From assembly GCA_019636615.1 (NCBI GenBank), contig JAHBXF010000001.1:1240001-1304000 (forward strand): 64,000 nt of DNA. Reading direction: 5' to 3'. Positions within the stretch are counted from its first letter, which is position 1. The number at the start of each line of letters is the position of its first letter. A program made the position numbers and the translations under genes. Shown one piece after another: positions 44,905 through 51,836 of the stretch. Origin of the DNA: Phycisphaeraceae bacterium. Lineage in GTDB: Bacteria; Planctomycetota; Phycisphaerae; Phycisphaerales; UBA1924. The notes beneath the pieces were generated by a model. It was not told where the DNA came from, did no database searches, and saw only the letters and a program-made list of their open reading frames with translations.

Positions 44905-45084
44905 ACGTTGCACACCCGCGTCGATCTCAATGCATAAGAACTGGTCGTAAGTTCACGCGCGGCGTCTGACCCGCACGGCGGCCCGGTCCCGGCGCGGCGG
45001 TTGTCGTGGCGTGGCTTGCGTGGATATTCTCTGGCGCGTTGTCGTCTATTCTCGGGATGCCGTGTGTGCAGGAAGGGGGCTCGT

Positions 45085-45870
45085 GTGGCGAAGAAGAGCG
45101 ATGGTGAAGTCGCGGGGCAAGGGGCCGGCGGAGAAGACCTGCCGCGCGAAATCACACCCGGCGGCAGCGAGGTCATCCGTCATGAACTCGGCGGGCAGGA
45201 TCAGCACCCGGGAGTGGCGTATCTGAGCGAGGAGGAGATGCTGGCCATTGAGGCGCACATCGAAGCCTGCTTTGGCCCCGTGAACAATGTGATCCATGAG
45301 ATTGTCTCAGAAGCGGTGCACATCGATCTGTTGCCGGCGATTTTAGAAGAAGATGAAGAAGTGGTTGTCATGCTGGCGACGATGGGCATGAGCGCTGTGC
45401 CGATGCACCTGCCGGACTTCGAGGATGTTCCCGAGGAGGAGCGGCCCTCGGCGTACGCGGAACTCATGATGCTGTTGCCGGGGCGGTGGAAGGCGATCGC
45501 AGAAGGAGACAAAGAGATAGAAGAGTGGGGGTGGTGGCCCGTCGGAGTCTTGAAAGACTGTGCGCGGCTACCGGTGTTGTTCGAGACGTGGCTTGGTCCG
45601 GGGCACACGGTGCCCAACGGCGACCCACCCGAGCCGTACCACGCATCGTGCCCGTTCGCGGGTGTGTTGGTCATTCCCATGGGCGGTGAGGCGTCGCGCA
45701 TGGAGGCCGGCGGCAAGGTGGTAGACTTCTACCTGCTCCTCCCGTTGTACCCGGCGGAGATCGAGTACAAACTCGAGCACGGCGCAGCGGCGCTGCTCGA
45801 GAAGATGGAAGAAGCGGGCATCTCTCCGCTGGAATACGCCGATCCCGAGCGGCCGTCGTGCGTTGGGTGA
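45085..45870 (+). CDS. Suppressor-of-fused (SUFU) domain protein
   Basis: A 261-residue cytoplasmic protein. From about residue 55 it follows the bacterial SUFU pattern: VHIDLLPAILEEDEEVVVMLATMGMSAVPM, YAELMMLLPGRW, WGWWPVGVLKDCARLPVLFETWLGPG, HTVPNGDPPEPY and the C-terminal YLLLPLYPAEIEYKLEHG. The start is GTG (MAKKSDGEV...), preceded by GGAAGG. Bacterial SUFU proteins are often immunity proteins of polymorphic toxin systems. No RHS or toxin gene is adjacent here, and the downstream gene is DUF4132, which makes that role uncertain. Confidence 0.82.
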   Translation: MAKKSDGEVAGQGAGGEDLPREITPGGSEVIRHELGGQDQHPGVAYLSEEEMLAIEAHIEACFGPVNNVIHEIVSEAVHIDLLPAILEEDEEVVVMLATMGMSAVPMHLPDFEDVPEEERPSAYAELMMLLPGRWKAIAEGDKEIEEWGWWPVGVLKDCARLPVLFETWLGPGHTVPNGDPPEPYHASCPFAGVLVIPMGGEASRMEAGGKVVDFYLLLPLYPAEIEYKLEHGAAALLEKMEEAGISPLEYADPERPSCVG

Positions 45871-46147
45871 TGCGGGTGGCGGGGCGATGCGTTCTGTGCC
45901 GCGCGGCCTGCAACACGAGATGACCTGCGCACCGAGACCGCCGCGGAGGTTTGTAATTGGTGCGGAGAAGCCCCATTGGAATCCACACCATGAAGTGATC
46001 AGGCCACGCCGGCCGATCCTGGCGGCACTCGGTGGGGGCGGACGGGATGTCGATGCGGCGCCCCGAACCGGGCCTCACCACGTATTGACTGTGTTTGCAA
46101 CGAAGCGGGCCGGGAATGCATACGCTCGGCTCTTGGAGGAATGTGCC

Positions 46148-46549
46148 ATGCCAACCCTGGTCGTGTGCGATGAAACAACGGGCGGTGCGCGGGGCGAGAA
46201 GATCTCGCTTGAGTTTCCCACCGAGCGCATCACGGTGCGAGAACTCATCCGCGAGCGTGTGTATCAGGAAGTGCAAGACTACATGCTCAAGCGCGCCACC
46301 AACGGCGGCGTCTTCAAGGGGCTGGTGAGGCCCGACGAGTCGGAGCAGACAGCGCAGGGGTACAGGGTCAAGGGTGGGCGTGAAATCGACTGGAAGGTTC
46401 AGTTTGCGCGGGCCTGCGCCGCGTACGAAGCCAACCGGGTGCTGGTTCTGGTGGGTGATCGTCAGACCGGCGGGCTTGATGAAGAGGTCGTGCTCGGACG
46501 GGGCGTTGAGGCGACGTTCCTGAAACTGGTGCCGCTGGTGGGGGGGTAA
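46148..46549 (+). CDS. Small beta-grasp-like protein with C-terminal Gly-Gly
   Basis: 133 residues from an ATG preceded by GGAGG nine bases upstream. The order TLVVCDE (strand), KISLEFP (strand), TVRELIRERVYQEVQDYM (helix), then later strands (RVLVLVGDR, EEVVLG), ends in VEATFLKLVPLVGG. The ending matches the tails of MoaD/ThiS/ubiquitin-like proteins, where a strand with hydrophobic residues leads into a terminal Gly-Gly. Proteins of this kind are found beside DUF4132 genes, from memory and not verified here. Only three bases separate it from the DUF4132 gene, so they are certainly co-translated. No E1-like (ThiF/MoeB) or JAB gene is in this window. The family name is unknown to me. Confidence 0.7.
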   Translation: MPTLVVCDETTGGARGEKISLEFPTERITVRELIRERVYQEVQDYMLKRATNGGVFKGLVRPDESEQTAQGYRVKGGREIDWKVQFARACAAYEANRVLVLVGDRQTGGLDEEVVLGRGVEATFLKLVPLVGG

Positions 46550-46552
46550 AGG

Positions 46553-49500
46553 GTGGCGAAGAAGAAAGTGTCAACCGGGCTCGACGCGGCGGGCGCGAGG
46601 GCGATGATTGACGCGTTTACTGGCACGACCCTGAGAGGTGCCAAGAGCGCTTCGAAAGTGAGAGACACGCCGGAGCTGCGTGCCATTCTTGGTCTGGTGG
46701 GTTCGGATCAACGAGTCGTTGCCTGCGAGATTGTGAGCCGGCTGGCCGACATTCAAAAGCGGCACATCAAGGCGGTGACCCAGGGGAGCACGAAAGGGCC
46801 AGAGCCATACTGGTTTCCATGGTTCGAGGAGTATGGGCTCCCGCTTTCATTCCTGTGCGCGCGACTGCTGGGGCGAAAGTTGTCGCTGAGCACCGATGAG
46901 GTTCTGAGCCTGATCGATTGCGTCTGTGGGGATGCGAGGCATGCCCGGAAGGTGCTTGTGATTCACGCGGTCAACGCCCTGGAAAGCCTCCCGCGACCAC
47001 TCGAGTCAAGGGTTGCGAGCGCGGCGATGCGTTTACGCGAGGAACTTCGCGCGGATCGTCGCGCGGCGAGCGCAAAACTTGCCACGCGAATATCCAAGTG
47101 TCTGGAGGGGTTCAAGGGTGGGCTTGACGCTCGGCCCAATGGCGTTCGCAAGGTCACACCATCGGAGCGTGTTCTGCTCCAGCGCGGCACAATCAAAGAC
47201 AGCACGCCGATGCTCCTCGACGCCATGCTGCGGGCGATGAGCATTCCCGAGGAGAATGATGCTGCGGGCGCGGTGCAGTTCGCCTGCCCGCCCGGTGCGC
47301 CCAAAGAAGTGATCGACGCGATCAACGATTCGCTCGAAGGGGCATTACTAAACTGCCCTCGAAGTTGGGTTGGCGGATTCGCCATGGATCCGACCGTCGG
47401 CAGCGTGGCGATCGCAGCGGGTGCGCCCGGGGTGGCGTGGCTGGCCTCGGCGCTGGCTGCCATGAGCCAGAAACAGATCAAGTATGAGTTTGAAGGCAAG
47501 AGGGCGCAGCGCTTCCACAAGGGTTTCGGCTCGCTCCTGAGTACGTTTGAGTTCGTGATCACGAAGATCAGCGGGGTCGATGCGCCTTCGCTGGCGTCGC
47601 TCTGCCACGCGTTGAGCCGTCTGCGCATTCCCGAGTACACCTACCCGGACTGGGTCAAGATCGCTGGGGAGTGTGCGCGGCTTGTATCCGCCTCCCCTGG
47701 GCCGATGGACAAACGCACCGTGCTCCACGCCATTCGCCTGCGCGAGCGGCTCGCCCGAACAGACGATGCGATGTACCGCGCGAGCGTGCGGGTGATGGAT
47801 GCGGCCCTGAACATCGGCGCGGACTTTCCGTTGGAACTGGGTGAGCGCTGGTCCGACCAGGCCTTCACGGATCTGATGGCGCTCAAACCGGCGGAGCGGG
47901 CCGTGTGGGTGCGCTTCATTGAGCACGGGCTGGGCGCCAAAGGTGGTGCGCCATCGGCCAAGTGGTGCAAGCAGGCCGATGAACTCGCCAGGTCGATGCC
48001 GCGCGAGCGGGTGGAAGAGTTTTTGGGTCGCTGGTTCCTGCTGGTTGGCAAGCCGCGCCCGGCGATCGCGGGCGGAAAGATCGCGGGGCGCGACCCATCG
48101 GTACCGACCGAACGTGGCGCGGATGGGCTTCGCTCCCTGGCGTTGATGGCTTCGCGGTGGGACACACCCGCCTCGGCCCGTGCCCTGGGCGACCTCGCCA
48201 TGGCCTGCTTCAAGATGGTTCCCGGCGTGGGCGCTCGCTGCATCCGCCCCGGCACCGCCGCGCTGTGGGGGCTGTCGCTGATGACCACCCCGGCGGCGCT
48301 GGCGCAACTGTCGCGGCTGCGTCAACTCGTGAAGTTCGGCACCGCCAAGAAGATGCTCGATACATCCCTTGGGAACCTGGCCGCGCGGCTGGGCGTGACG
48401 ACGAGCGAACTGCACGAGATGGCCTGCCCGGATTTCGGGCTCGATGCCGACGGGACGATGCACCAGGAAGCCGGCGACTTCACGCTGGAACTGGTCGCCA
48501 ACACGGGCGGGGCCGAGGTTCGCGTGCTCGACGCCAAGGGGGCGGTGCGCAAGAGCGTGCCCGACGCGGTGAAGAAGGAGCACGGCGAGGCGCTCAAGGC
48601 GATGAAGCAGGCGAGCGACGACATCGACAAGATGCTCAGCGCGCAGCGGGTGCGCATTGATTCGATGTTCGTTGATGATCGGTGTTGGGCCGTGCCCGCG
48701 TGGATCGATCGCTACATCCACCACCCGCTGGTGGGCGTGCTGGGCCGGCGCCTGATCTGGCGCATCGTCGATGATGCAAAGTCTGCAAACCCCGGGCGGG
48801 CCGTTCTGTGGCGCGACGATCGCGCCTGCTTTGCCGATCTTGACGGGAAGAGCGTGACACCCGCAGACTCGCAGCACGTTCGCCTCTGGCACCCCATCAC
48901 CGCCAGCGCCGACGAGGTTCGCGCCTGGCGCGACCTCATCGAGAAGTCCGGCATTCGACAGCCGGTGAAGCAGGCCCACCGCGAGGTCTACCCGCTCACC
49001 GACGCCGAACGCACGACCGCCACGTATTCGAACCGCTTCGCGGCCCACATCTTGAAGCAGCACACCTTCCAGCAACTGGCGGCCGACCGCGGCTGGAAGA
49101 GCAAACTGCGGCTCATGGTTGATGCCGAGTACCCCGCCCCATCGCGGGAACTCACCGGGTGGGCCATCCGGGCCGAGTTCTGGATTGAATCGGTCGGCGA
49201 TGACTACGGGGTAGACACCACGGATTCCGGCTCGTTCCTCTATCTGACGACCGACCAGATACGGTTTTACCGCGCCGGCGCTGCCGAGCCGCACGCGCAT
49301 GCGGGCGGTGGTGGCTACACCACCTACGGCGAAGATCGTGAAGAGAACCGGCCGCTGCCGCTGGAGAGCATCCCGCCGATTGTCTTCAGCGAGATGATGA
49401 GAGACTGTGATCTCTTCGTGGGCGGCGCCAGCGTGGGGAACAACCCGGAGTGGCAGGACGGCGGGCCCGAAGGGCGCTTCGTGAACTACTGGCAACTCTA

Positions 49501-49852
49501 CTCGTTCGGCGAACTCGCCGGATCGGGCCGCGCCAGGCGAGAAACGCTCGAACGCCTGATACCTCGCCTCCGCATCGCGGGAGTCTGCGAACTGGGCGAG
49601 CGGTTCTTGAGGGTGAAGGGCAGGCTGCGCTCGTACAAGATTCACCTGGGCAGCGGCAACATTCTGATGGAGCCCAACGACCAGTATCTGTGCATCGTGC
49701 CCAGCGCGGGCCAGATCGCGAACGAGGGGAGCGTCTTTCTGCCCTTCGAGGGGGACCGCACGCTCTCAATCATCCTGAGCAAGGCGTTCCTCCTCGCAGA
49801 GGATGACAAGATCAAGGACCAGAGCATCGTCAGGCAGATCAAGCGGAAATAG
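46553..49852 (+). CDS. Large DUF4132/DUF7737-type protein (MolR-like)
   Basis: A 1099-residue cytoplasmic protein from a GTG start three bases after the upstream stop, with G-rich ribosome-site sequence. The N-terminal two thirds are helical repeat-like. A DUF4132-like region covers about 810-900 (EKSGIRQPVKQAHREVYPLTDAE then FAAHILKQHTFQQLAADRGW). The C-terminal DUF7737 part has FLRVKGRLRSYKIHLGSGNIL and, near the end, the conserved VFLPFEGDRTLSIILSKAFLLAEDD. E. coli MolR is a relative, sometimes linked to MoxR ATPase/vWA genes. The biochemical role is unknown; the neighbour with a Gly-Gly tail is the best hint. Confidence 0.8.
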   Translation: MAKKKVSTGLDAAGARAMIDAFTGTTLRGAKSASKVRDTPELRAILGLVGSDQRVVACEIVSRLADIQKRHIKAVTQGSTKGPEPYWFPWFEEYGLPLSFLCARLLGRKLSLSTDEVLSLIDCVCGDARHARKVLVIHAVNALESLPRPLESRVASAAMRLREELRADRRAASAKLATRISKCLEGFKGGLDARPNGVRKVTPSERVLLQRGTIKDSTPMLLDAMLRAMSIPEENDAAGAVQFACPPGAPKEVIDAINDSLEGALLNCPRSWVGGFAMDPTVGSVAIAAGAPGVAWLASALAAMSQKQIKYEFEGKRAQRFHKGFGSLLSTFEFVITKISGVDAPSLASLCHALSRLRIPEYTYPDWVKIAGECARLVSASPGPMDKRTVLHAIRLRERLARTDDAMYRASVRVMDAALNIGADFPLELGERWSDQAFTDLMALKPAERAVWVRFIEHGLGAKGGAPSAKWCKQADELARSMPRERVEEFLGRWFLLVGKPRPAIAGGKIAGRDPSVPTERGADGLRSLALMASRWDTPASARALGDLAMACFKMVPGVGARCIRPGTAALWGLSLMTTPAALAQLSRLRQLVKFGTAKKMLDTSLGNLAARLGVTTSELHEMACPDFGLDADGTMHQEAGDFTLELVANTGGAEVRVLDAKGAVRKSVPDAVKKEHGEALKAMKQASDDIDKMLSAQRVRIDSMFVDDRCWAVPAWIDRYIHHPLVGVLGRRLIWRIVDDAKSANPGRAVLWRDDRACFADLDGKSVTPADSQHVRLWHPITASADEVRAWRDLIEKSGIRQPVKQAHREVYPLTDAERTTATYSNRFAAHILKQHTFQQLAADRGWKSKLRLMVDAEYPAPSRELTGWAIRAEFWIESVGDDYGVDTTDSGSFLYLTTDQIRFYRAGAAEPHAHAGGGGYTTYGEDREENRPLPLESIPPIVFSEMMRDCDLFVGGASVGNNPEWQDGGPEGRFVNYWQLYSFGELAGSGRARRETLERLIPRLRIAGVCELGERFLRVKGRLRSYKIHLGSGNILMEPNDQYLCIVPSAGQIANEGSVFLPFEGDRTLSIILSKAFLLAEDDKIKDQSIVRQIKRK

Positions 49853-49976: not shown

Positions 49977-51836
49977 ATGCCCGCGAATCAGGAACTCGCA
50001 TCAACGCTGTCGGACATGGCCCGCATGATGGAACTGCTGGGGGAAGACTCCTTCCGCGCCGCGGCCCACAGCCGCGCGGCACGCGCGATAGAGGGGCTGG
50101 CCGGCGACATCGAGACAATCGCGGCCGACCGCGGCGCGCTGCTGGCGATCGAGGGCATCGGCGCCAAAATGGCCGACAAAATCATCGAGTTCTGCACCAC
50201 CGGCGTGATCAAAGAGCACGCCGACCTGCGCGCCCGCGTGCCCGAGGGGTTGCTCTCGGTGCTCGAGGTGCCCGGGCTTGGCCCAAAGACCGTGCGCGCG
50301 ATGTGGCAGCAACTGGGCATCACCTCGCGCGACGGGCTGGCCAGGGCGATCGAGGATGGTTCGCTGCTCACCCTGCCGCGCATGGGCGAGAAGGCCGTGG
50401 CCAAGATCCGCGACGCGCTCACGTTCGCGGCGGCCGCGGGGCAGCGCACGTGGCTGGGCAAGGCCCGCCCGGTGGCGGATGTCTTCATCGATCGCCTGCG
50501 CTCGCTCGCGGGCGTCGAGCGCGTCGAGGCGGCAGGCTCGCTGCGGCGCGGACGAGAGACGATCGGCGACGTGGACATTCTGGTGGGGATGGCCGCCGAT
50601 GCCCCGCCCGCGGCCACGCTGGCCGTGGGAGAGGTCTTCCGCACCACCCCGGGCGTGACGCACGTGCTCGCGGCGGGAGACTCGAAGAGTTCGGTGATGT
50701 TCTCGATCGATGCATCGCAGGGGCGGTGGCAGCCCACCCCAAACCCGGAGAAGGGCGAGTCTCTGCCGCCCCCGCCCCCGGGCGGCCCCGCGATTCAGGT
50801 TGATCTGCGCGTGCTGCCCGCCTCGGTCTACGGCGCGGCCCTCATGTATTTCACCGGCAGCAAAGAGCACAACGTGCGGCTGCGCGAGCGGGCCATCGCA
50901 CGAGGCATGACGCTCAATGAATGGGGCCTCTTCCCCGACACCCACAAAGACCTCGGCCCGCCCCAGTCGCGGGGCGTGACGCCCATCGCCGCGGCCACCG
51001 AAGAAGACGTCTTCCGTGCGCTCGATCTCCCGTGGATTCCTCCCGAGGTGCGCGAAGACCGCGGCGAACTCGATCACCCCCGCCCGTGGGCGCTGGTAGA
51101 CCTGGCGGATATCAAGGCCGAACTGCACGCCCACACCACGGCGTCTGACGGTGTGTTCACCATCGAGCAACTCGCGGCCGAAGCGCGCCGGCGCGGCTTT
51201 CACACCATCGCCGTGACGGATCACTCGCAATCTTCCACCATCGCCGGGGGCCTTCGGCCCGACCGCCTGCGACGGCACATCGACGCGGTGCGCGAGGCGA
51301 ACGAACGCACCGAGGGCATCACCATCCTCGCGGGGTCAGAGGTTGACATCCTGGCCGATGGACGGCTGGACTATGACGACGACCTGCTCGCGAGTTTGGA
51401 TGTGGTGGTGGCCAGCGCGCACGCCGCGCTGACACAAGACCCGGCCACGGCCACCAGGCGGCTTCTGGCCGCGGTCACGCACCCGCTGGTGCACATCCTG
51501 GGGCACCCCACCGGCAGGCTCGTGATCCGCCGGCCCGGGCTCTCGCCAGACATGAGCGAGATCTTCGCGGCCGCGCGAGAGCACAACGTGGCGATGGAGA
51601 TCAACGCGCACTGGATGCGGCTGGACCTGCGCGATATTCACGTGCGCGCGGCGGTCGAGGCCGGGTGCCTCATCGCCATCGACTGCGATGTGCACGAAGG
51701 CGCAGACTTTGACAACCTTCGCTTCGGCGTGCAGACCGCGCGCCGGGGGTGGGTCACGGCGGATCGCTGCATCAACACCTGGCCGGCCCGGCGGCTCCAC
51801 GCGTGGCTTCGTGCCAAGGGCCGCGGAGGGCAGTGA
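49977..51836 (+). CDS. polX: DNA polymerase/3'-5' exonuclease PolX
   Basis: A 619-residue repair polymerase. The N-terminus has helix-hairpin-helix domains ([35 protein letters not shown]). The polymerase X motif is [18 protein letters not shown] with catalytic Asp198 and Asp200, and the third carboxylate is Asp276 in IQVDLRVL. The C-terminal PHP domain begins [14 protein letters not shown] (His384 and His386) and continues with ITDHSQ-like AVTDHSQSS and metal ligands near SAHAAL and INAHW. It would fill small gaps in base-excision repair. A short hairpin (49924-49942, arms CGCGCCG and CGGCGCG) lies just before the start. Confidence 0.93.

Follow-up and report, generated by a model that had tools for sequence, protein, structure and literature searches.

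The locus and its two genes

The window is a 64,000 nt stretch of DNA from a Phycisphaeraceae bacterium whose genome comprises 3.84 Mb in 2 contigs and whose relatives are Phycisphaeraceae and other Planctomycetota. On the forward strand, a small ORF at 46148–46549 starts with ATG at 46148 and ends with TAA at 46547–46549. It is followed by a large DUF4132 gene, the GTG start of which, at 46553, lies 3 bases past the TAA, so that the codons across the junction read GTG GGG GGG TAA AGG GTG. The features of the two genes are as follows (basis in brackets).

46135–46139, + strand: GGAGG, Shine-Dalgarno-like, 8 nt upstream of the ATG (sequence)
46148–46549, + strand: predicted ubiquitin-like protein of 133 aa with a Gly-Gly tail (AlphaFold2 model, fold matches and 44 homologues)
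46526–46546, + strand: flexible C-terminal tail LVPLVGG, residues 127–133, ending in a free Gly-Gly (pLDDT and conservation)
46553–49852, + strand: partner protein of 1099 aa with a helical-repeat N-terminal part, DUF4132 and DUF7737 (Pfam, adjacency and the model of the orthologue at locus L009)
48539–49096, + strand: DUF4132 domain, residues 663–848 (Pfam limits; conservation over 36 proteins)
49532–49840, + strand: DUF7737 domain, residues 994–1096, the portion of DUF4132 proteins that accompanies the ubiquitin-like gene (Pfam and comparison of DUF4132 proteins)

A sequence-only reading had proposed a 133-residue protein here, and the ORF is borne out by its ATG, its stop codon, the ribosome-binding-site-like GGAGG and its homologues. 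Conservation marks it as a real gene under selection, because it has 44 distinct homologues, which in the aligned set are 22–66% identical to it. A TTG-start ORF at 45863–46549 was rejected as a mere upstream extension; the homologues start at the ATG or 1–2 residues off. The 133-aa protein received no name in Pfam, NCBIfam and PDB sequence searches, and its sole match in the PDB was one de novo design (E 1.2). The PADLOC anti-phage models gave just a weak pAgo match (E 0.005), which we take as chance.

The gene that directly precedes the small one, at 45082–45870 (+), encodes a protein with a SUFU domain (PF05076, E 4e-34); this gene is not conserved beside the pair at other loci. On the other side, a PolX-type DNA polymerase gene (HHH, Pol beta thumb, PHP) at 49977–51836 (+) starts 124 nt past the DUF4132 gene. 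This neighbour is suggestive in that it fits the DNA-damage link found in Deinococcus (see below), yet the neighbourhood is not conserved.

The partner had been named DUF4132/DUF7737 from its sequence, and the name is confirmed by matches to PF13569 (7e-51, 173 bits; cut-off 27) and PF24879 (7.5e-40, 135.5 bits; cut-off 27). Among 36 partners, residues H780, Q803, P804, K806, Q807, R810, E811, Y813, E819, R828 and R846 of the DUF4132 domain are invariant, as are D953, S1034 and D1068, while H832, E947, D951 and H1031 are nearly invariant. From its residues, the invariant polar cluster in DUF4132 looks enzyme-like. A conserved catalytic Cys was also sought in the 36 proteins; the best column, Cys1047, is occupied by Cys in 31 of them and none is strictly invariant, and thus a strictly conserved thioester Cys in the partner is unsupported. 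The model of the L009 partner, with pLDDT mostly >90, consists of helical repeats in its N-terminal part and of an alpha/beta part at the C-terminal end. Its fold search matched helical-repeat proteins over residues 169–507 and, dominated by such repeats, returned no match for the alpha/beta part. A PDB sequence search with the partner yielded nothing.

Homologues, Gly-Gly ends and pairing with DUF4132

Homologues of the small protein were collected from relatives, a phylum sample, genome contigs and plasmid records. They belong mostly to Planctomycetota; others were found in Deinococcus radiodurans, D. ficus, D. psychrotolerans and D. sp. D7000, and further ones in Bacteroides finegoldii, Nonomuraea gerenzanensis and Novosphingobium humi, the reach beyond Planctomycetota being based on plasmid-type records only. 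The family can be classified into two types: type 1 resembles the protein of the window, and the divergent type 2 consists of planctomycete paralogues and the Deinococcus and Bacteroides members. Neither a profile scan of viral contigs nor the phage collection contained a relative of the small protein. A Fusobacterium match (E 0.6), surrounded by no DUF4132 and no profile match, was discarded as chance.

The Gly-Gly ending claimed from the single sequence withstood comparison with the homologues, as it is the exact chain end in 40 of the 44 (39 of the 43 tallied plus that of Deinococcus sp. D7000). Both types share the conserved end F[LVI][KR][LM]xxL[VA]GG-stop, in which Deinococcus has L replacing F and the residue preceding Gly-Gly is V or A. 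Across the family, GGG, GGC, GGA and GGT all occur at the final two positions. The C-terminal Gly-Gly is not a chance feature. The exceptions end in FLSG (L032), in LAGA (L033 and L038) and in LSGRLW (Bacteroides). L033 and L038 are two paralogous pairs of a single planctomycete genome, whose small proteins carry LAGA and not LAGG. The member on a Bacteroides finegoldii plasmid (L078:9980-10399) continues for three residues past Ser-Gly, and its LSGRLW looks like a short, pro-form-like extension past the tail in need of trimming.

A same-strand DUF4132(+DUF7737) gene adjoins the small gene, upstream or downstream, in 42 of the 44 loci. The two unpaired loci lie near contig ends, which are 0.14 and 1.8 kb away from the small gene (L010, L047/L076). 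The order is swapped, with DUF4132 first, at L011, L013, L014, L017 and L041. In a sample of 392 Planctomycetota genomes, DUF4132 occurs in 19 of the 20 genomes with the small gene versus 37 of 392 overall. The divergence of the two proteins is correlated (r = 0.93 overall), and within type 1 the distance correlation is 0.69, against a shuffle maximum of 0.45. The small protein and DUF4132 are never fused at any locus, and no other neighbour is conserved around the pair. The earlier description of the two as "fused in operon" therefore stands for the adjacency and fails for the fusion, since they are always two separate proteins, and the proposed partnership is strongly supported by the 42/44 adjacency, the occurrence of both gene orders and the correlated divergence. 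We found no paper linking DUF4132 with a ubiquitin-like protein in the open-access full text of PMC.

In the sampled genomes, DUF4132 proteins lacking the small-gene neighbour are mostly devoid of the DUF7737 end. Three divergent proteins (Acetobacter L082, L121 and L124) have a DUF7737-like end and no recognisable ubiquitin-like neighbour; these may have another or an unlinked partner. A longer DUF4132 type of about 1630–1840 aa pairs with type-2 small proteins (L042–L045, L072 and L074).

Predicted fold, E1 genes and the Deinococcus counterpart

An AlphaFold2 model of the 133-aa protein was built with 35 homologues (pLDDT 79, pTM 0.70). It consists of strands at residues 3–10 and 15–22, a long helix at 30–52, a poorly ordered insert, a helix at 82–94, three strands at 98–102, 113–115 and 121–126, and a disordered tail, of which residues 130–133 have pLDDT <50. 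The strand-strand-helix order guessed from the sequence agrees with this model, and the predicted structure includes the strand-strand-helix-strand-strand-strand core of ubiquitin-like folds. Among PDB structures, Foldseek ranked human MOCS2A (MoaD in molybdopterin synthase) first, with probability 0.99 and E 9.5e-3, and most of the next matches are ubiquitin-like proteins. Structural realignment (VIA) again placed MOCS2A at the top (Z 8.1, 81 residues, 3.4 Å), and almost all 50 rows are ubiquitin-like folds covering approximately residues 1–131. A second model, obtained from a pseudo-fusion at L009 in which the stop codon was read through as a modelling device that brings the two proteins into a single prediction with the tail tethered, re-found these matches (MOCS2A Z 7.7), although a Z of 7–8 by itself can reflect a common arrangement. 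As the matches are uniform, extend to the tail and recur in the second model, the small protein is likely to adopt a beta-grasp (ubiquitin-like) fold, and the structural proposal of the sequence-only reading thus survived prediction. The tethered pseudo-fusion gave no confident docking (tail pLDDT ~30, pTM 0.63), and we claim no interface from it.

The sequence link of the small protein to ThiS/MoaD is only suggestive. PF02597 (ThiS/MoaD) remained below its curated cut-off against the family, with a best E of 0.17 and matches in 2 of 37 members. Alignment by hhalign with 20 ThiS/MoaD proteins of the same genomes was weak (probability 4.5%, E 0.009), its register placing residues 95–125 on ThiS/MoaD 43–74, just ahead of the tail. 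The ThiS/MoaD tails in genomes with the gene pair read LVGGG, FVGGG, AIAGG and PVSGG; ThiS of the window's genome ends in SLVGGG and the 133-aa protein in PLVGG.

The sequence-only reading had noted no E1, E2 or JAB gene in the window, and this holds at every locus, the operon search across other genomes included. A ThiF/MoeB-type E1 is present elsewhere in all 22 genomes tested that carry the pair, and this presence is not discriminating because ThiS also occurs in 22 of 22, ThiS/MoaD proteins being found in every one. The genome of the window has exactly one such E1 (G000:C2:784284-785027, −; open frame of 362 aa), which would have to serve ThiS, MoaD and, in the favoured model, the 133-aa protein. 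Prok-E2_A and Prok-E2_B were each found in 1 of the 22 genomes and are both absent from 20, and Prok-JAB is present in 14 and absent from 8; all three are missing from the window's genome. The absence of linked E1, E2 and JAB genes together with the scarcity of the E2 families argues against a full ubiquitin-type cascade, and the genome counts indicate that an E1-E2-JAB set of these families, linked or unlinked, is not required.

In the radiation-resistant D. radiodurans, the genes are ordered trxC, small gene, DUF4132. This locus contains a single copy of the RDRM published for DRA0165 (GGTTATGCTATTTACATAAC), immediately 5' of the small gene, which is therefore DRA0165, and the partner is DRA0166. 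All four Deinococcus species examined have the DdrO/RDRM palindrome ahead of the ubiquitin-like gene (L077:9895-9914; L079, L080 and L081); a search upstream of the window's gene turned up no DdrO-like box. DRA0165-DRA0166 is a published DdrO/IrrE target: DdrO depletion strongly up-regulates this putative operon, and DRA0166 accumulates after mitomycin C in an IrrE-dependent manner (PMC8533742). Cells deleted for DRA0165 (SEP068184) show higher antioxidant capacity and catalase activity, and in pull-down the protein binds thioredoxin Trx1/DR_A0164 (PMC9650054). In Deinococcus, and for Deinococcus only, we conclude that the module serves the DNA-damage/oxidative-stress response. The same study, the text of which does not contain the word "ubiquitin", held DRA0165 to be Deinococcus-specific and devoid of an RDRM (PMC9650054). 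Both statements are contradicted here, because homologues exist outside Deinococcus and the RDRM palindrome was found. Co-immunoprecipitation recovered the same 157 proteins with the tag on either end of DRA0165 (PMC9650054), and those contacts thus need no free C-terminus. Thioredoxin lies beside the pair in D. radiodurans and is absent from the other Deinococcus loci and elsewhere.

Interpretation and comparison with known systems

E1-only ubiquitin-like proteins (MoaD, ThiS, TtuB, Urm1 and SAMPs) form a dedicated carrier-partner pair and borrow their E1. The module shares this anatomy, with a carrier, one large, enzyme-like partner, no fusion, which leaves the C-terminus free, and no E2, and activation by a shared E1 is therefore favoured. 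We propose, with a probability of about 0.5, a two-gene module in which a GG-tailed ubiquitin-like protein is activated by the shared E1 and has DUF4132-DUF7737 as its obligate partner, with no E2. The tail would be adenylated by the cell's MoeB/ThiF-type E1, in the manner of Thermus TtuC, one E1 common to TtuB, MoaD and ThiS; TtuB carries sulfur and also modifies proteins (PMC3980101). No E2 would take part: the DUF4132 protein would then use the activated tail, accept it or mediate its attachment, by way of sulfur donation to this protein or of conjugation by or onto it. We infer tail activation, tail chemistry and a catalytic role of DUF4132; as to the chemistry, the small protein may be a sulfur carrier, a Urm1/TtuB-like modifier or both, and we lean slightly towards the sulfur carrier. 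The predicted fold, the match of the tail to ThiS/MoaD, the pairing, the presence of E1 without E2 and the TtuC precedent favour E1 activation. Against it, ThiS/MoaD already account for the E1, 4 of 44 homologues lack the exact Gly-Gly, PF02597 stays subthreshold, no confident docking was obtained, and the co-immunoprecipitated contacts do not require a free C-terminus. A bolder version, which we put forward as speculation, is a DNA-damage-induced ubiquitin-like system that runs on the housekeeping E1 and is active in irradiated D. radiodurans, with DUF4132-DUF7737 as a new ligase or sole acceptor without E2/E3 homology.

The main rival, possible but rather doubtful, is a non-covalent subunit whose tail is never activated and instead docks in a narrow pocket of DUF4132, gating or completing the active site. 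Strict one-to-one pairing with DUF4132 as the sole conserved neighbour, correlated divergence of both proteins and the lack of linked E1, E2 and JAB genes would all be expected of such a subunit, and the members ending in GA or SG would still suit a pocket for small residues. However, a buried structural tail need not be the exact chain end in 40 of 44 proteins, nor match the ThiS/MoaD tails that E1 recognises, and the pseudo-fusion model failed to place it.

The published view of DRA0165/SEP068184 as a small thioredoxin-binding regulator that reduces antioxidant activity, without any ubiquitin-like chemistry, draws on the deletion phenotype and the Trx1/DR_A0164 pull-down (PMC9650054). We regard it as an improbable account of the family, since thioredoxin adjoins the pair in D. 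radiodurans alone but DUF4132 always does, the fold and the terminal Gly-Gly are left unexplained, and the Deinococcus-only and no-RDRM claims of its source are contradicted. Less plausible still, and very unlikely, is a complete E1-E2-JAB conjugation system in the style of Bil or CBASS type II acting in trans: the Gly-Gly ubiquitin-like protein, the JAB family in 14 of 22 genomes and the many E1s in some of them would suit it, but no locus links an E1, E2 or JAB gene, each E2 family appears in a single genome of the 22, and the genome of the window lacks both of these and Prok-JAB. Finally, the chance that Gly-Gly merely reflects a Shine-Dalgarno sequence serving a DUF4132 gene that overlaps or follows, as the junction codons of the window might suggest, is negligible, because Gly-Gly is kept where DUF4132 lies upstream (L011, L013, L014 and L017), so that the order-swapped loci refute this origin, and because all four Gly codons are in use and L[VA] and F..L are conserved too.

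If the E1-activated module is real, it represents an unrecognised Gly-Gly ubiquitin-like family in five phyla, and DUF4132, a domain widely distributed but functionally uncharacterised, gains its first firm partner. A ubiquitin-like protein and DUF4132 would also be tied to the Deinococcus DNA-damage regulon, and this counterpart puts a candidate ubiquitin-like system within reach of experiments in a laboratory strain. Whether the tail forms a conjugate or a thiocarboxylate or simply docks could be decided quickly, as D. radiodurans is genetically tractable, its DRA0165 gene has already been deleted and co-immunoprecipitation mass-spectrometry data exist.

Among known proteins, E. coli MolR/YehI has the same DUF4132 domain (PF13569); DUF4132 proteins without a ubiquitin-like neighbour mostly lack DUF7737 in the sampled genomes. 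Pup and UBact are likewise small bacterial modifiers with a Gly-rich end, but they are disordered, whereas the protein described here is predicted to be folded. Bil and CBASS type II operons encode an E1, an E2 and usually a JAB. The module may share with them a bacterial ubiquitin-like chemistry as its eventual outcome, and no E1, E2 or JAB occurs at any of its loci.

ThiS/MoaD (PF02597, including human MOCS2A) share the predicted beta-grasp and the flexible (V/A/S)GG tail, and a ThiS/MoaD carrier gene often adjoins that of its partner enzyme. This partner is MoaE or ThiG in ThiS/MoaD systems and DUF4132 here, and there is no Pfam-level sequence match. The small protein is indeed larger than MoaD, as noted earlier, with 133 aa versus about 65–90 aa, because it contains an insert (about residues 50–95) after helix 1. 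Thermus TtuB, Urm1 and the archaeal SAMPs are likewise Gly-Gly ubiquitin-like proteins with a connection to stress and no E2, and they use an E1 common to ThiS and MoaD, such as is present in 22 of 22 genomes here. No tRNA thiolase (TtuA/Ncs6) was noticed near the pair. In contrast to TtuB, Urm1 and the SAMPs, the ubiquitin-like protein of the module is of another family and size and is always tied to one large protein.
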